Assembly (NCBI GenBank): GCA_022825705.1
Contig: JAJDWH010000001.1
Coordinates: 121,418 to 185,417, forward strand
Origin: Alphaproteobacteria bacterium
GTDB taxonomy: Bacteria > Pseudomonadota > Alphaproteobacteria > TMED109
Length of the DNA stretch: 64,000 bases
Direction: 5' to 3'
The translations under genes and the position numbers were made by a program. Each line of letters opens with the position of its first letter. The first letter of the stretch is position 1. This document shows positions 2,233 to 49,776 of this stretch, in pieces. The notes beneath the pieces are model-generated. The model made no database searches, was not told the origin of the DNA, and saw only the letters and a list, made by a program, of their open reading frames with translations.

Positions 2233-3824
2233 GTAACCATCCGAGCACGATCACCTCGTTCGATCAATTCCGGCTATCGGAGCCGGTCCAGCGGGCGATT
2301 CGGGATGCCCGGTTCGCGACACCGACGCCGGTCCAGCAGGCGGCAATCCCGTTGGCGATCGACCGACGCGACATTCTGGCTACCGCGCAGACGGGGACAG
2401 GAAAGACTGCCGCGTTCACGCTCCCGATGATTGACCGACTCGCCGGAGGACGGGCCCGGGCACGGATGCCCCGCGCGTTAATTCTCGAACCCGTCCGGGA
2501 ACTCGCACTCCAGGTTCAGGAACAGGTGAACCTGTTTTCCGCACATGTAAATCTGTCGTCCGAGCTCTTCATCGGCGGCGTCAACATCGGCCCTCAGATT
2601 CGCCGGGCGGCGCAACCGGTCGACGTCATGATCGCCACGCCGGGCCGCCTGCTCGACTTGTTCGACCGTGGCGCATTGCTGCTGATCGGCGTGGAGATTC
2701 TGGTGATCGACGAGGCGGATCGGATGCTCGATATGGGATTCATTCCCGACATCGAAAGCATCGTCGCCAAGCTGCCGGTACGCCGGCAGACCATGATGCT
2801 GTCCGCGACCATGCCGCCGGAGATCGGACGGATCGCCAAGCGTTTCCTGCAGCGGCCGGCGCGGGTCTCCGTGGCCCCCCCGGCCGCAACCACGGAGTTG
2901 GTGGACCAGTCCGTCATCCATTGCCGCGCCGGCGACAAGGACCGAATCCTGCGAACGTTATTGGGCAATCCGGCCATTGAGTCAGCGCTCGTGTTCTGCA
3001 ACCGCAAACGGACAGTCGACGAATTGGTACGGACGCTGCGACGTGACCGGGTCCAGGTCGAACCCCTGCACGGAGACATGGCCCAGCCGGTCCGCCTGAA
3101 GACCATGGAAGCGTTTCGCGGAGGCGAGATCCGCGTTCTGGTTGCCACCGACGTGGCGGGACGCGGACTGGACGTGCGCGGGATCAGCCACGTGCTCAAC
3201 TACGACGTGCCGACGCAGCCGGAGGACTACGTGCACCATATCGGTCGCACCGGGCGCGCCGGTACTCCCGGAACGTCCATCACCCTCGCAGCCTCTGCGG
3301 AACGTGAGCACCTCGAGGCCATCGAGAAGCTGATCAATCTGAAAATTCGCGTGCAACGCGCCGACGAGGGTGCCGCACCCGCCGTTTCGCCGACTGCTGA
3401 GCACAAGCCCGAGGCCAAACCCAGGAGAGCGAGTCGCACGGAGAAGAACACTTCTTCCGATCAGCCGCCTGGCTCGGACGGCTCCAGCCATCCGCTCGCC
3501 CACATTCTCGCTCCCGCCGCCCCTCGCCACAGAACCCCGCCCGCCCGGCAGCACCGCAACGGCATCGCCGCTGCTCCGAAACGACCACCCACATGGAGCG
3601 AGACTGTCGGGAAAGCGCGGCGTCGACACCAGGACGCCGACGCTGAACCGGTCAAGAGGGCTCCGTCGCGGAAGGGCTATCGCCGCAGCCAAACCACGTC
3701 GAACCTGAACACGAGTCCAGACAAGCGCCCCGCTGCCGGACGAACTTCACGGGGGTCGAAGTTCTTCAGGGACTCCGAGCACGTTCCGGCGTTCCTTCGA
3801 CCCCCTCCGGGCGCGACCGACTAG
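2229..3824 (+). CDS. rhlE: DEAD-box ATP-dependent RNA helicase, RhlE type
   Basis: This is an RNA helicase likely to act in ribosome assembly or mRNA turnover. The order of motifs is standard: Q motif (TPTPVQ near 32-37), motif I AQTGTGKT at 53-60, a variant motif Ia (PVRELALQ), TPGR, DEAD near 160, SAT near 193, ARGLDVRGI near 315 and HHIGRTGRAG near 335. Residues from about 370 to 531 form a basic, Pro/Arg/Ser-rich, low-complexity tail, typical of RhlE proteins and likely to bind RNA, though this one is long. The TTG start overlaps the parE stop. No separate promoter is visible, so parE and rhlE are probably co-transcribed. Confidence 0.92.
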   Translation: MSNHPSTITSFDQFRLSEPVQRAIRDARFATPTPVQQAAIPLAIDRRDILATAQTGTGKTAAFTLPMIDRLAGGRARARMPRALILEPVRELALQVQEQVNLFSAHVNLSSELFIGGVNIGPQIRRAAQPVDVMIATPGRLLDLFDRGALLLIGVEILVIDEADRMLDMGFIPDIESIVAKLPVRRQTMMLSATMPPEIGRIAKRFLQRPARVSVAPPAATTELVDQSVIHCRAGDKDRILRTLLGNPAIESALVFCNRKRTVDELVRTLRRDRVQVEPLHGDMAQPVRLKTMEAFRGGEIRVLVATDVAGRGLDVRGISHVLNYDVPTQPEDYVHHIGRTGRAGTPGTSITLAASAEREHLEAIEKLINLKIRVQRADEGAAPAVSPTAEHKPEAKPRRASRTEKNTSSDQPPGSDGSSHPLAHILAPAAPRHRTPPARQHRNGIAAAPKRPPTWSETVGKARRRHQDADAEPVKRAPSRKGYRRSQTTSNLNTSPDKRPAAGRTSRGSKFFRDSEHVPAFLRPPPGATD

Positions 3825-8084: not shown

Positions 8085-9116
8085 CTAGCGGCCCCCTCGG
8101 AACAGCCGCCGGACCGCTGCGGGCGGAGCGGTCAGGGTCTCACGGTAGAAGACGTAGAGCCCACTACCCGCGATCAATGCCATCCCGACCGCCGCCGTGA
8201 TGTCAGGCCAGTCGCCCCAAACCAGTAACCCCCACAGCAACGAAAGCGGCAGCGCCGTGTATTCGAACGGCGCCACTACGGCGGGCTGGGCGACGCGGTA
8301 GGCCTGTGACAGGAAGTACGTCCCGGCCCCTATCAGTACGCCGCACGCGAACAGCAGTGCCAATTCCACCCCGTCCGGCCAACTCCAGGCGCGCAGCAGG
8401 AACTGGAGGCTCGGGTGGTCGGAACTGGAGAAGCGGCCGTCGCCGATCACCAGACCGACGCCCAGGCTCGCGACGGCGAAAGCCAGGTGCACGTAGAGCG
8501 CCATCGATGAGGCCCGGTCGGTCGTCCCGAGCCGTCGCGTGATGATCTGCAGCAGCGCGTAACCGAGCGCGGCACCCACGGGAAACAGCGCGGCAAGCTC
8601 CAGCGTTTCCCGGCCGGGCCGCAGCATGATCACCATCCCCACCATCCCGATCAGAACAGCGGCCCAGCGTCGCGGTCCCACACGGTCCTTCAGCAGCACG
8701 ACGGAAAACACCGTGATGAACAACGGCGCCACGAAGAACACTGCCGTGGCCTCGGCCAAGGGCATGCTGGCGACACCCATGAAAAAGCACATGTTGGTCC
8801 AGATGAACAGGAGGCACCTGACGATGTGCAGTCCCGGACGGCGCGTCCTGAGCAAGCGCATTCCGCCTTCCAGGCGGACGATCGCGAGCGTGATGACGAT
8901 GGCGACCAGGGAGCGCGCGAACGTGACTTCATGGAGCGCGAAATCGGAACTCAGCCACTTGATTACCGCGTCCTGGAGGGTCAGCGCCACGACACCGCCA
9001 AAGATGCAGGCGACCCCGAGTCGTACTTGACGGGCAGAAGATGTCGTGGAGCGCGCTGGACCAGGCAAGTTGGGGCTCCAGTCGATAGTGGCGGGTTCCG
9101 CCGGGGGGCGGTGCAT
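8085..9116 (-). CDS. EamA/DMT-superfamily permease
   Basis: This is a 343-residue inner-membrane transporter with about ten hydrophobic segments arranged as two EamA repeats, typical of drug/metabolite exporters. Recognisable stretches include DAVIKWLSSDFALHEVTFARS near the N-terminus and PLAEATAVFFVAPLFITVFSVV in the first repeat. The substrate cannot be told from sequence. The first roughly 30 residues are polar and the start codon has a weak ribosome-binding site, so translation may begin slightly downstream. Confidence 0.85.
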   Translation of the reverse strand: MHRPPAEPATIDWSPNLPGPARSTTSSARQVRLGVACIFGGVVALTLQDAVIKWLSSDFALHEVTFARSLVAIVITLAIVRLEGGMRLLRTRRPGLHIVRCLLFIWTNMCFFMGVASMPLAEATAVFFVAPLFITVFSVVLLKDRVGPRRWAAVLIGMVGMVIMLRPGRETLELAALFPVGAALGYALLQIITRRLGTTDRASSMALYVHLAFAVASLGVGLVIGDGRFSSSDHPSLQFLLRAWSWPDGVELALLFACGVLIGAGTYFLSQAYRVAQPAVVAPFEYTALPLSLLWGLLVWGDWPDITAAVGMALIAGSGLYVFYRETLTAPPAAVRRLFRGGR

Positions 9117-9697
9117 ACGTCGGGGTGTCCCGGCGCAGCTTCCGCCGTCTACACGAACCGATCAGAGAATGCGACCGAAACGGTCTCAGTCTCGCGCACC
9201 TGTCGTCCTCACGGGCAGCGCACTCCACCTGCGCTCCCCTCCATCCACCGAACAGAACTGACCATTTCGCCTGCAGCGGCACGAGCCAGAGCGGGAACTA
9301 CCGCGCTCCATTCCTGTCCCGTCCCGGAGCGTGGCACGTCGGCAGCCCGGCCGACAGAAGAATCCTCCCGAAGACGTTACACCGGCCGCCGACAACCGGA
9401 CTGGGATGCACTATCTCGCAGTGGCATCCTGTGCGTCACGATCGGAGCGGGCTAAGGTACGGCGATCGATCAACGTATGCTGTCCGAATCCCACCTTCGA
9501 GTGCGCTCGTTCGCTCCAAGACCGCGCGGACCGTCCGGCATCAACCTGCAGGTTTTCCTCATGACGGCATCGACAGGCAGCACTGAATCCCGGCCGGTCC
9601 GCGTCGGGGAGCGGACGTCCCCGCAGGCGACCGATTGGTGTCCCGGAATCCCGGCCGCTCGCCGCAATGGCAAGCTCCATCCCGGAACACGAGGGGA
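9117..9697. other. Long intergenic region without a supported gene
   Basis: This 580-base stretch lies between the divergent EamA permease and ccmF genes and must hold the promoters of both. Short open frames exist but have no ribosome-binding sites or recognisable protein features. CcmE, which often precedes ccmF, is not encoded here. A GAGGGG Shine-Dalgarno at 9691-9696 serves ccmF. Confidence 0.5.
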
Positions 9698-45987: not shown

Positions 45988-48264
45988 ATGTCGCGACACG
46001 CCGAAGGAGATCGGGGAACTGGCCGGAGAACCAGGGTCACTACCAGTCACTGGGGTGCGATCGAAGTAACGACCGAGAACAACCGCGTAATCGCCGCGGG
46101 CCCCTTTTCGGAAGACCCGAATCCGCCGTCCATTTCCGACATTCTTCCCGCTGCCATCCATCACCGCACGCGGGTCGCTCGCCCGTCGGTCCGCAAGGGA
46201 TGGCTGGAAGGCGGCCCGGACCGAGCCCGTGCGCGTCGGGGGAAAAACACGTTCGTCGAGCTTCCATGGGACGAGGCGCTGGATATCGCCGCCGCGGAAC
46301 TTCAGCGGGTGCGGGATGAGCACGGCAACGGCGCGATCTTCGGCGGGTCCTACGGCTGGGCAAGTGCCGGCCGGTTCCACCATGCCCTGAGCCAGGTCCA
46401 CCGCTTCCTGAGCTCGATCGGCGGCTACGTCGCCTCGGTCGCGAGCTACAGCACGGCAGGCGCGCAGGCGATCGTCCCGCACGTGTTTGGCATGCCGTTC
46501 CTCAAGTTGCTGTGGGGCCATCAGAATTCGTGGCCGATGATCGAAGCGCACACCGAGACCCTCGTGATGTTTGGCGGCATCAACCCGAAGAACTCGCAGG
46601 TCAGCATGGGCGGGGTCACGCGGCATCAGGCCCTGGGGTGGCTGGAACGCTATCGGGCGAAGGGCGTTCACCTCGTCAACGTCGGCCCGCAACGCACGGA
46701 CACGATCGCGGGTTCCGAGTGGCTGCCGGTCGTTCCCGGCACTGATACCGCGCTGATGATGGGAATCGCCCACGTCCTGGAGACCGAGGGGCTCGTCGAC
46801 CGGGCATTTCTCAGCCGGTGCACGGTCGGCTACGACCGGTTCCGCCCGTACCTTCTCGGCGACGCGGACGGCCAGCCCAAGTCCCCGGAATGGGCGGCCG
46901 AGATCTGCGGTATCGAATCCGAAACCATCCACACCCTCGCTCGCAGAATGGCGGGAACCCGCACGTTGATCACCGTCGCATGGGCGCTGCAGCGGGGACA
47001 GCACGGCGAGCAGCCTTACTGGATGGCGGCGGTCCTGGCGGCGATGCTGGGACAGATCGGCCTGCCCGGCGGTGGCATCGGCTACGGCTACGGCGCCATC
47101 GGCGGTGTCGGAGTTCCGCTCAAGCGCCTGTCCGGTCTCAGGCTGCCCCAGGGTGACAATCCCGTCGACGATGCGATCCCCGTGGCCCGGATCGCCGACA
47201 TGCTGCTCAATCCGGGCGGTCAATATGACTTCAACGGGCAGAGCAGGACCTACCCGGATATCCGGCTGATCTACTGGTGCGGCGGCAACCCCTTCCATCA
47301 CCACCAGGACCTCCACCGGCTGAACCAGGCCTGGGAGCGGCCCGACACGATCATCGTCCACGAACCCTGGTGGACCGCCACAGCTAAGCGGGCTGACATC
47401 GTCTTTCCGGCCACGACGCCGTTCGAACGCGAAGATATCGGGCGCTCGCCGAACGATGCCTACCTGTTTCACATGGACCGGCTGATCGAACCGGTGGGCG
47501 AAGCCCGTGACGACTACGAGATCTTCGTGGAGCTGGCGCATCGCCTGGGCCATGGCGAGTCGTTCTCGGAGGGCCGGACCGCCGCCGACTGGCAACGCCA
47601 TCTCTACGACCGCTTCCGCCAGGACGCCGCCCGCCACGGGGTCGAAACGCCGGGCCTCGACGAGCTGCGCCAGCGGAACTGGGTCGAGCTTCCCATCGAG
47701 GGCGCCGAGTTCGCGCCGGTTCCCCTAGCCGACTTCCGTGAGAACCCGGCGGGCAATCCGCTCGACACGCCGTCCGGCCGAATCGAGATCTTCTCGGAGA
47801 CGATCGCAGATTTCGGATACGACGAGTGCCCTGGCCACCCCGTCTGGAATGCTCCCGACGAATGGCTGGGCGCAGCGTCCGCCGCAACCCACCCGCTCCA
47901 TCTCGTATCGCCGCAACCGGGTGACAAGCTGCACAGCCAGATGGAGAGCGCCCTCGCCGACATCGAGGACGCGCGCCCGATGCCGGTCATCATGAATCCC
48001 GAGGACGCCCGGGCTCGTGCGATCAGCGATGGCGACATGGTGATCGTCTTCAATGACCGGGGCCGGTGCCGCGCCCGAGCCAGGCTCTCGGACGACATTC
48101 GGGAACGCGTGGTCGCCATATCCACAGGCGCTTGGTTCGATCCCGACGACGATGACACCGATCGTCAGGGCAACCCGAACGTGCTCACGCGTGATATCGG
48201 CACGTCACGCATCGGCCAAGGTTGCACCGCGCACACGACCCTGGTCGACGTAGCCAGAGCTTGA
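45988..48264 (+). CDS. Molybdopterin-dependent oxidoreductase, BisC/TorA type
   Basis: This 758-residue protein belongs to the DMSO-reductase family. It starts TTSHWGAIEVTTENNRV as cytoplasmic biotin/methionine sulfoxide reductases do, without a Tat signal or an iron-sulfur cysteine motif, and has the Mo-ligand Ser in VASYSTAGAQ. A C-terminal guanine-dinucleotide-binding domain (MNPEDARARAISDGD onwards) is present. It probably reduces an S- or N-oxide. The ATG at 45988 has GGAG 6 bases upstream. Its stop codon TGA overlaps by two bases the 8-bp direct repeat that borders the TnpB element, so the element was inserted exactly at the end of this gene without disrupting it. Confidence 0.88.
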   Translation: MSRHAEGDRGTGRRTRVTTSHWGAIEVTTENNRVIAAGPFSEDPNPPSISDILPAAIHHRTRVARPSVRKGWLEGGPDRARARRGKNTFVELPWDEALDIAAAELQRVRDEHGNGAIFGGSYGWASAGRFHHALSQVHRFLSSIGGYVASVASYSTAGAQAIVPHVFGMPFLKLLWGHQNSWPMIEAHTETLVMFGGINPKNSQVSMGGVTRHQALGWLERYRAKGVHLVNVGPQRTDTIAGSEWLPVVPGTDTALMMGIAHVLETEGLVDRAFLSRCTVGYDRFRPYLLGDADGQPKSPEWAAEICGIESETIHTLARRMAGTRTLITVAWALQRGQHGEQPYWMAAVLAAMLGQIGLPGGGIGYGYGAIGGVGVPLKRLSGLRLPQGDNPVDDAIPVARIADMLLNPGGQYDFNGQSRTYPDIRLIYWCGGNPFHHHQDLHRLNQAWERPDTIIVHEPWWTATAKRADIVFPATTPFEREDIGRSPNDAYLFHMDRLIEPVGEARDDYEIFVELAHRLGHGESFSEGRTAADWQRHLYDRFRQDAARHGVETPGLDELRQRNWVELPIEGAEFAPVPLADFRENPAGNPLDTPSGRIEIFSETIADFGYDECPGHPVWNAPDEWLGAASAATHPLHLVSPQPGDKLHSQMESALADIEDARPMPVIMNPEDARARAISDGDMVIVFNDRGRCRARARLSDDIRERVVAISTGAWFDPDDDDTDRQGNPNVLTRDIGTSRIGQGCTAHTTLVDVARA

Positions 48265-48270
48265 AACATT
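48263..48270. repeat. 8-bp direct repeat (left target duplication)
   Basis: GAAACATT lies directly outside the left inverted repeat. The identical 8 bases lie directly outside the right inverted repeat, as expected for a target-site duplication made on insertion. Confidence 0.88.
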
Positions 48271-48294
48271 GGGACTTATATCGATTACTTGACA
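48271..48294 (+). repeat. Left terminal inverted repeat of the TnpB element
   Basis: It begins ggga and continues with the core CTTATATCGATTACTTGACA. The single difference from the right copy is base 4 (a against g). It is AT-rich within a GC-rich genome. The inner end TTGACA equals a consensus -35 box reading inward. Confidence 0.9.
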
Positions 48295-48296
48295 AC

Positions 48297-49565
48297 TTAC
48301 GCTGCCAGCCTTCGATCCGTTTCACGGGTCGCCGGAGTCGCTGGATGCGAACGCCCCTCGCCGTGCAGCTGCGCCAGTCCCCGACGCCGGATGTTGCGGG
48401 CCGCGTTCAGGTCCGCATGATCCGCGTGGCCGCAGGCCACGCACTCAAAACTCGCCTGGCTGCGGCGTGAGGCGGCGTCTGCATGGCCGCACGCGGCGCA
48501 GGTCCGGCTGGTATGGGCCGGGTCCACCGCGATCAGCCGTGGCGCCTTGTAGGCCAGCATCGCGCGGAGACCGCTCCAGCCTGTCGCCAGGATCTCGCGG
48601 TTCAGGCCGGCCTTCTGCCGGACGTTCTGGCCAGGCGCCGCCAACGTGCCCCTCGCCGATGCCGTCATCGCGCGCGTCCGCAACGCCTCGACCGCCACCG
48701 TGCCCCCGGCCAGCGACCGGCTCACGTGGTGCTGCCAGTCGCGGCGCCGCTGCGCGATCCGCCGCTGCGTGCGCGCCAGCCGCCGCCGCGTGCGCTCGCG
48801 CCGTCTCGAGCCGCGGCGCTGCCGAGCAAGGCGGCGCTGATACCGGCGGACCCTCGCCTCGAGCCGCCGGCTATCGGGCGCGTGCACGATGCGGGCGCGG
48901 CGGCCGTCGCTGACCGCCACCTGGCCGACGTTCATGTCGACGCCGGTCACGGTTCCGTCGTCGGGACGGGCAGTCGCCGCGACCGCGTAGCACACGACGG
49001 CCATCCACTTGCCGTTGACGCGCCTGAGGACGGCCTGCACGGGCTCGGCGTCCGGGTACGGGTTGCCGCCCCGGCGGCGCAGCGCGAGCCAGCCGATCTT
49101 CGGAAACCACAGCTTGCCGTCCCGGATGCGCACATCTTGCGGGATCGTCACGCTGTCGCGGCCGCGGCGTTTGAACCGCGGTCGCCCGGCCTCGCCCCGG
49201 AAGAACCGCCGCCAGGCGTCGGCCTGGTACTTGAGCGTGTACCGCACGGGAGCGTACGGCATGGCCTGCAGCCAGGGCGTCACCCGCCGCAGCTGCGTGA
49301 ACGCCTTCCCCAGCGTGAAGAACGTCGGCGCCGGCGGCTTCGCGCCGCACATGCGCGCCATGTCGTAGAGCTGCGCCTGCTGGTCGAGCATCTCGTTCCA
49401 GACGAACCGGCAGGCGCCGGCGACGGCGGCCAGCCGCTGGGCGGTGGCCGGCCGGTCGAACAGCACCCGGTAGACGATCTGCCGATGTTCCACGCCTTCG
49501 GGCGCATCGGGCGCCCGTTCACCGGCGCTCTGGTCGGGCAGGCTGGACTGTGACGGATGTTTCAC
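48297..49565 (-). CDS. tnpB: TnpB-family RNA-guided endonuclease
   Basis: From the GTG at 49565 the protein has 422 residues. The RuvC catalytic triad is complete: Asp210 in TGVDMNVG, Glu293 in VAVEALRTRAM and Asp385 in HADLNAARNI. The zinc ribbon has Cys356, Cys359, Cys375 and Cys378. An N-terminal wedge-like part (YRVLFDRPATAQRLAAVAGACRFVWNEML) and a long Arg-rich bridge (residues about 235-280) are present. The start is uncertain (GTG 49565, GTG 49493 or a TTG inside the right repeat). The stop codon lies 2 bases from the left inverted repeat, so any guide-RNA scaffold must overlap the 3' coding end and the repeat. Confidence 0.93.
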   Translation of the reverse strand: MKHPSQSSLPDQSAGERAPDAPEGVEHRQIVYRVLFDRPATAQRLAAVAGACRFVWNEMLDQQAQLYDMARMCGAKPPAPTFFTLGKAFTQLRRVTPWLQAMPYAPVRYTLKYQADAWRRFFRGEAGRPRFKRRGRDSVTIPQDVRIRDGKLWFPKIGWLALRRRGGNPYPDAEPVQAVLRRVNGKWMAVVCYAVAATARPDDGTVTGVDMNVGQVAVSDGRRARIVHAPDSRRLEARVRRYQRRLARQRRGSRRRERTRRRLARTQRRIAQRRRDWQHHVSRSLAGGTVAVEALRTRAMTASARGTLAAPGQNVRQKAGLNREILATGWSGLRAMLAYKAPRLIAVDPAHTSRTCAACGHADAASRRSQASFECVACGHADHADLNAARNIRRRGLAQLHGEGRSHPATPATRETDRRLAA

Positions 49566-49619
49566 GCATGTTCTTTTAGCACAAGAACACCAACGCAACA
49601 ATTCGGGACGTACCCAATC

Positions 49620-49643
49620 TGTCAAGTAATCGATATAAGCCCC
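49620..49643 (-). repeat. Right terminal inverted repeat of the TnpB element
   Basis: Read on the minus strand it begins gggg and then matches the left repeat for the core CTTATATCGATTACTTGACA. TTGACA at its inner edge points toward tnpB, 55 bases before the GTG start, and could be a -35 box. The -10 region (ATTGTT at 17 bases spacing) is poor. Confidence 0.9.
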
Positions 49644-49651
49644 GAAACATT
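49644..49651. repeat. 8-bp direct repeat (right target duplication)
   Basis: GAAACATT is identical to the left copy at 48263-48270. Confidence 0.88.
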
Positions 49652-49776
49652 CGCATCGAACGGTGCCAGGGCACCGCGGCCGCCGTGTGCGCCCTACGTG
49701 GGGCAGTCAGGCCACGTGCGCGCAATAGCTCGGAGCGGCCGAGCAGAGCGGACTCCGGTCAGCAGCCGGTGCGGGG

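Follow-up and report, generated by a model that had tools for sequence, protein, structure and literature searches.

The window examined here is a stretch of 64,000 nucleotides from an alphaproteobacterial genome of the GTDB lineage TMED109 (GCA_022825705.1, contig JAJDWH010000001.1, positions 121,418 to 185,417). It contains an inserted element of 1373 bp (48271–49643), which is probably a non-autonomous IS1595-type element, comparable to a mobile insertion cassette, whose sole cargo is the RNA-guided nuclease TnpB, with a guide RNA that contains the terminal repeat and a matching transposon-adjacent motif (TAM). Direct copies of GAAACATT abut both outer edges of the element and are identical at 8/8 positions. 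The 24-bp terminal inverted repeats agree at 23/24 positions, and they are the longest and best of the 14 inverted-repeat pairs listed for a 2.6-kb stretch. In the list of open reading frames (ORFs), tnpB is the only recognised gene within the element, and no transposase gene lies inside. A first-pass annotation, made from the sequence alone, had described these ends, the perfect 8-bp duplication and the single intact tnpB; its coordinates are exact, and the three features are confirmed as a real insertion.

The insertion and its copies

The left flank of the insertion site is present in 6 of 7 genomes of the genus, including the one that carries the window. In three relatives, those in which the right flank can also be aligned, the orthologous site is empty and holds one 8-mer: GAACGATT (L162), GAACCATT (L163) and GAGACATT (L164). 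L165 and L166 differ downstream and are uninformative. The first-pass annotation had suggested looking both for such empty sites and for other copies of the repeat, and each search was successful. It had also proposed that the insertion was recent. The perfect duplication and the empty relatives favour this, while the AT-rich repeat that had been taken as a further indication is a trait of the whole family and no sign of recency.

A second full copy is found in the same genome (G000:C34:6658-8030). It is also 1373 bp long and differs from the window element by 103 substitutions, with no insertions or deletions. Both of its ends are exact copies of the window 5′ end, and its flanks agree at 3/8 positions only, which means that the duplication no longer matches. 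Because this copy has exact ends, and because the reversed end pattern, used as a control, has no match in this genome, the element ends are not a product of chance. A third element of the genome, split on two contigs, encodes a TnpB that is 58–61% identical, has ends of another type and shares the 8-mer AATCAGAG on its two sides. An ORF that reads as a PIN-domain, VapC-like protein (no family search; L007:6234-6650) stops 7 bases short of the second tnpB element in this genome.

The TnpB protein

The window TnpB matches the NF040570 model (guided_TnpB) at 3.8e-58, above the curated cut-off, and it also matches the Pfam families OrfB_IS605 and Cas12f1-like_TNB. It retains the RuvC residues D230, E313 and D405, which we take to be catalytic, as in TnpB, together with both CxxC pairs. 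The true start of the gene is uncertain, because the listed TTG start falls within the 5′ repeat and resemblance to other TnpBs is seen only from near residue 45–60 onwards. In a tree of 25 TnpBs, with long branches flagged, the 18 from the main families cluster with weak support (86/66), and the group that includes L169, the TnpB of an element described below (L184), is supported at 99/97.

It is improbable that this TnpB is a decaying protein, or a domesticated one of the TldR-like regulator kind, that is carried by chance. Several copies in the family are indeed broken (e.g., L049, L064, L234, L274 and L279), but all three RuvC acidic residues (D-E-D) are present in 27 of 29 aligned TnpBs, including that of the window, and the ratio of nonsynonymous to synonymous substitution rates (dN/dS) is 0.17–0.50 in 15 pairs.

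Origin of the ends

Transposases were searched for in the seven genomes of the genus, all of which are drafts of 92–97% completeness. IS1595 transposases occur in 6 of the 7. Y1 transposases were found in none of the seven, and the same search was positive in 5 of 14 control genomes. ISL3 transposases were also found in none of the seven, and this family was rejected as the source of the ends. Perfect 8-bp duplications and GGGG-type ends were seen at 7 of the 12 IS1595 loci searched; perfect 8-bp duplications flank nine IS1595 elements of the genus, whose ends read GGGGATTATATA or nearly so.

The ends of the tnpB elements resemble those of the elements that encode this transposase. The left end of the IS1595 transposase element L134 (duplication CATGTTTC) is GGGGCTTATATCTAATGGTTGACA, which by eye agrees with the window 5′ end at 20/24 positions and with a 5′ end of Chloroflexota tnpB elements, GGGGCTTATATCGAATAGTTGACA, at 22/24. 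The end of the tnpB element L075 is within 2/24 of the type-A end of L140, an IS1595 element of the same genome; those of L059 and L105 (3′ end) are within 4/24 of IS1595 type B and 2/24 of type F, respectively. In the Caldilineaceae family, the IS1595 transposase element L286 is 4562 bp long and has 24/24 ends that start with GGGGCTTATATCG. The window repeats begin with GG, as expected of the IS1595 family.

It follows from the IS1595-like ends, the 8-bp duplications and the absence of Y1 matches in the genus that the element is best read as a non-autonomous IS1595-type element carrying TnpB. This agrees with the first-pass annotation, which had placed TnpB in a non-autonomous DDE-type element and had recommended comparing its ends with those of families that make 8-bp duplications. 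A full-length relative with a transposase was sought too: none with the same ends was found, and IS1595 elements with similar ends, 2–4 of 24 positions off, were. The element is filed as IS1595-type by its ends and not as an IS1595 insertion sequence, since no DDE_Tnp_IS1595 transposase lies inside. Mobile insertion cassettes (MICs) are transposase-free and have ends like those of a transposase-bearing element. The window element has this form, and that of a miniature inverted-repeat transposable element (MITE), in that it is free of a transposase and its ends are similar, not identical, to those of transposase elements. Conserved GG ends are described for Merlin elements and 8-bp duplications for IS1595 (PMC8101967), and the IS1595-family element ISEc69 makes AT-rich 8-bp duplications (PMC7835479).

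The IS1595 transposase elements L134, L140–L145, L285 and L286 measure 2.2–4.6 kb, which exceeds what a transposase gene needs. In L134, extra ORFs next to the transposase are possible passenger genes.

It is highly improbable that the element is an ordinary IS200/IS605 (IS1341-type) or IS607 TnpB element and that its repeats and duplication are due to coincidence or to an older element that TnpB entered. The inner repeat end, TTGACA/TGTCAA, does resemble a stretch, GGATGTCAA, that stands 3′ of the outgroup TnpBs in 6 of the 7 printed (it is missing in L170, within L185) and which is presumably an IS605-type right end. However, no repeats stand at the empty sites, where the 8-mer is single, 22 duplications are perfect, Y1 was found in none of the seven genus genomes searched, and ends without TTGACA also flank tnpB (L074/L075, L184). 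Insertion of an IS605 element into a palindrome was rejected because of the repeat-free empty sites and the perfect duplications. An IS607 element is expected to make no duplication, and one is present here; the genome was not screened for genes of serine recombinases. Four plasmid-borne TnpB relatives (35–40% identity) have no IS1595-type ends (0/4; L308 has a single stray match of 12 letters), and one of the four adjoins an IS200/IS605 transposase. The first-pass annotation had named three outcomes that would speak against its element, namely copies with differing ends, two 8-mers at an uninterrupted site and an adjacent Y1 transposase, and none was seen.

A multi-copy family in two phyla

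Both ends lie on one contig in 39 tnpB elements, some of which carry internal deletions. Of these, 14 have an 8/8 duplication, 5 have 7/8, 4 have 6/8 and 16 have 1–4/8. A further 7 end pairs lie on separate contigs with identical 8-mers. Within the window's family, 7 of 28 genomes contain the end pattern, with 6 of 7 in the genus; the lone match in G015, one of those seven genomes, has 3 mismatches and looks like chance. With a stricter limit, the pattern is confined, among 385 genomes of the class, to four that belong to the window's genus. In the Chloroflexota, it occurs in 7 of 46 genomes of the family Caldilineaceae, four of which carry 14 to 55 ends each. A search of viral contigs with the end pattern gave no match.

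A more distant relative, in another alphaproteobacterial family, is the 1193-bp element L184. Its TnpB is 39% identical, the duplication TATCGTAT stands on both sides, and its ends agree with the family ends only when one gap is allowed. By sequence comparison, the association of TnpB with such elements spans TnpBs that are only about 40% identical, in two phyla, and the elements form a multi-copy family. This means that TnpB is no isolated passenger, which amends the first-pass annotation.

Several related observations concern this family. G411, a genome of the Caldilineaceae family, has 55 ends and at least two TnpB clades with different ends. Three short elements with the same ends keep the tnpB 3′ end without the gene (L046:3355-3551, 197 bp; L072:3391-3584, 194 bp; L071:3513-3811, 299 bp), and these are possibly derivatives that supply a guide RNA only. 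Ends of the same type (GGGACGTATATCGATTAGTTGACA at L008:~8860-9215 and GGGGCTTATATCGAACAGTTGACA at L053:~3170-3524) also stand beside a Phd-like antitoxin ORF (no family search), with no tnpB. The second ends of these two elements were looked for and not found; the antitoxin ORF is a possible second type of cargo.

An asymmetric motif at the target

When the flanks are oriented by tnpB, the two sides of the target differ. The counts refer to distinct flanks, 61 on the 5′ side and 73 on the 3′ side, and leave out the second L066 end (5 mismatches), L275 (TnpB match 26%), ends without a tnpB match inside, flanks of <20 bases and flanks with identical last 14 bases. G at position −9, just outside the duplication, is found in 54 of the 61 5′ flanks versus 20 of the 73 3′ flanks (Fisher 4.5e-13), and GAA in 37 of 61 versus 1 of 73. 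In the insertions with a perfect duplication (14 on one contig, 7 on split contigs and L184), the 5′ side has G in 22/22 and G^AA, in which the caret marks the duplication edge, in 13/22. Seven flanks lack the G as exceptions, and five of these hold GAA shifted by 1–3 bases (L276 and L282 have one flank sequence). In a deeper Chloroflexota clade (TnpB 44–46% identical), T exceeds A at the next base (5/7), which, on these few cases, suggests a motif that varies with the TnpB clade. In the three relatives, the still empty sites have G^AA at the expected position, so that the motif predates the insertion there. Since the 5′ side shows G and the 3′ side has no such motif, G^AA looks like a TAM that straddles the edge of the duplication.

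The control set consists of 24 ends from 12 elements that encode an IS1595 transposase and are bordered by matching 8-mers on the two sides; 11 of them lie on one contig and one is split (L292/L194), and unpaired loci were excluded. GAA occurs in 1/24 of these ends and G in 7/24 (p 1.3e-6 and 1.8e-7 versus the tnpB 5′ sides). At two more single IS1595 ends outside the 24, position −9 is C (L195) and A (L196).

These comparisons bear on the explanation that TnpB is passive cargo, the IS1595 transposase selecting both sites and orientation through its unequal ends and TnpB having no role in retention, which is rather unlikely. The two ends do differ, with G at position 4 in 54 of 61 5′ ends and A in 39 of 73 3′ ends, and an orientation preference of the transposase is thus possible. 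In addition, IS1595 transposase elements of 2.2–4.6 kb carry other DNA too, and three Chloroflexota elements of the control have G at −9 in 5 of 6 ends, so that G may partly be a transposase preference in that phylum. Against passive cargo stand the single GAA among the control ends and the shifted GAA in five of the seven exceptions. Moreover, the tnpB element L074/L075 has type-A ends together with G^AA, whereas L140 and L120, IS1595 elements of the same type, do not have the motif, and the tnpB element L059, with a type-B end, has G but not AA. Finally, dN/dS is <1, and the tnpB stop lies inside the repeat or within a few bases of it.

Predicted guide RNA

The tnpB frame terminates inside the repeat in the majority of intact copies from the Chloroflexota, and in the window it stops two bases short of the 3′ repeat. 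The 3′ regions of three clades were aligned (8 of 8 distinct sequences used for A1, 23 of 30 for A2 and 21 of 25 for A3). In each of the three RNAalifold predictions, the 3′ repeat pairs with the tnpB 3′ end to form a stem, and the sequences involved differ. For clade A1, 64/64 cells of the stem pair, 7 cells are changed on both sides, and the covariation score is reached by 0 of 500 shuffles; in slid versions of the stem, 19–42% of cells pair. As the repeat folds with the tnpB 3′ end, with covariation in one clade, which is related to the window element, the 3′ inverted repeat is probably a part of the guide-RNA scaffold. Pairing energy sets the 3′ ends apart from the 5′ ends (Mann-Whitney 1.3e-6) and separates them poorly from IS1595 ends; end by end it is too weak to serve as a stand-alone test. 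A guide lying entirely inside the inverted repeat was set aside, as it could not target an empty site.

A parallel to such an arrangement has been published. In PMC10711439, the repeats and duplications of elements carrying Fanzors, eukaryotic relatives of TnpB, are predicted to lie within the scaffold of the right-end element RNA (reRNA), and IS607 TnpBs and Fanzors are described as incorporating transposase-imposed bases in the scaffold.

Proposed mechanism and significance

In the proposed scheme, an IS1595 transposase encoded elsewhere in the genome would recognise the repeats and move the element in trans. In the guide RNA, the scaffold would probably run from the tnpB 3′ end through the 3′ inverted repeat into the first bases of the duplication, and the remaining duplication bases and the flank would follow as the guide portion. 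An RNA ending in ...AAG(U/C)CCC-AA-guide would then recognise G^AA, the duplication and the flank at the empty site. Because the empty site carries both TAM and target, it could be cut, and repair from the filled copy would restore or keep the element. The filled 5′ copy would be spared, as only six bases match the guide, and the filled 3′ copy would be spared because the terminal C of the repeat precedes it instead of G. The insertion, flank motif and RNA pairing in this scheme rest on sequence; the cutting, repair and trans-mobilisation are steps that we infer. The suggestion of the first-pass annotation that TnpB could favour retention or homing gains support from the TAM-like flank and from the predicted pairing of the repeat with the tnpB 3′ end.

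It is about an even call whether a broader reading holds, in which a bacterial DDE transposon lineage has rebuilt the biology of TnpB. The repeat would serve at once as transposase site, tnpB stop region and guide-RNA scaffold; the TAM would straddle the duplication edge such that empty sites are cut and filled ones spared; and TnpB would impose the orientation in which insertions persist, with its clades imposing G^AA or G^TT.

A number of observations weigh against this interpretation of the element. The searches brought up no transposase-bearing element whose ends are exactly those of the window element; the nearest ends differ at 2–4/24, and G023 has family ends yet no IS1595 match. The poor duplications (1–4/8) make up 16 of the 39 one-contig elements, two of the 29 aligned TnpBs (L059 and L272) lack the third RuvC Asp, and the G of the Chloroflexota control ends was noted above. 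With regard to the RNA, the 8 rows of clade A1 stem from two genomes, 7 of them from G411, and two of the five A1 measures, both-side-changed pairs and further pair types, are matched by 384 and 123 of 500 shuffles. Covariation in the stem is strong only in A1 and slight in A2 and A3. Pairing energy beats shuffles at 0.05 in 10 of 56 3′ ends versus 4 of 58 5′ ends and 3 of 22 IS1595 ends.

The element would work like a Fanzor-carrying DNA transposon and like a mobile insertion cassette; by the features tested, it is neither an IS200/IS605 nor an IS607 element. With the IS200/IS605 and IS1341-type elements it shares the TnpB family, a tnpB that reads toward the element end and a flank that could act as guide, but it has inverted repeats and an 8-bp duplication, and Y1 was not found in the genus (0/7 drafts). 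As in the eukaryotic transposons that carry Fanzor1 and Fanzor2*, a TnpB relative is cargo between inverted repeats and target duplications (PMC10711439, PMC3627910); one published case is non-autonomous, and repeat and duplication are predicted there to lie in the reRNA scaffold (PMC10711439). The difference is that here the protein is a bacterial TnpB, the ends are of IS1595 type, and the 8-bp duplication is variable, with only part of it apparently fixed. The IS1595 family, which includes relatives of Merlin, shares the 8-bp duplications and the GG ends (PMC8101967, PMC7835479) and, in the same genus, similar ends; the window element has no transposase and has TnpB as cargo. MITEs are likewise transposase-free, with ends resembling those of a transposase-bearing element (PMC3119063). 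Unlike in MICs and MITEs, the cargo here is an RNA-guided nuclease, and one end of the element itself seems to form part of its RNA.

A literature search, in which subscription papers were mostly beyond reach, turned up no case in which a bacterial TnpB sits within an IS1595 element or another DDE element with inverted repeats. RNA-guided nucleases on DDE transposons are known from eukaryotes, in the form of Fanzors, and the present case, in which the element's ends and insertion sites look fitted to the TnpB guide RNA, would be a bacterial counterpart. If the proposal is true, a system with many copies in two phyla and with predicted guides and TAMs would make it testable how a guide-RNA nuclease adapts to a target-duplicating transposase, and also whether TnpB can maintain an element without a transposase gene of its own.

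Feature coordinates and neighbouring sequence

Table 1. Features of the tnpB element, by position in the window
Feature	Position	Strand	Remark
8-bp target duplication GAAACATT, copy on the tnpB 3′ side	48263..48270	.	Single in three empty orthologous sites
Terminal inverted repeat GGGACTTATATCGATTACTTGACA, 24 bp, tnpB 3′ side	48271..48294	+	Also a predicted part of the reRNA scaffold
Terminal inverted repeat GGGGCTTATATCGATTACTTGACA (reverse complement), 24 bp, tnpB 5′ side	49620..49643	-	
8-bp target duplication GAAACATT, copy on the tnpB 5′ side	49644..49651	.	
tnpB, up to 442 aa	48297..49625	-	guided_TnpB match; RuvC residues and both CxxC pairs
TAM-like G^AA: G outside the duplication and the duplication's first two bases	49650..49652	-	Family-wide motif
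Predicted reRNA scaffold segment: tnpB 3′ end and 3′ inverted repeat	48271..48374	-	Inferred from RNAalifold consensus
Predicted guide: duplication bases 3–8 and 3′ flank	48249..48268	-	From the TAM model; 20 nt by analogy

The element lies between two ORFs named from their translations alone. One is molybdopterin-type oxidoreductase-like and terminates in the duplication, and the other, which is convergent, is ring-hydroxylase-like. Upstream of tnpB, at 49569–49589 of the window, stands a palindrome, TGTTCT...AGAACA, whose pairing is kept in the diverged copy L009 (TGTTCTCG...CGAGAACA).

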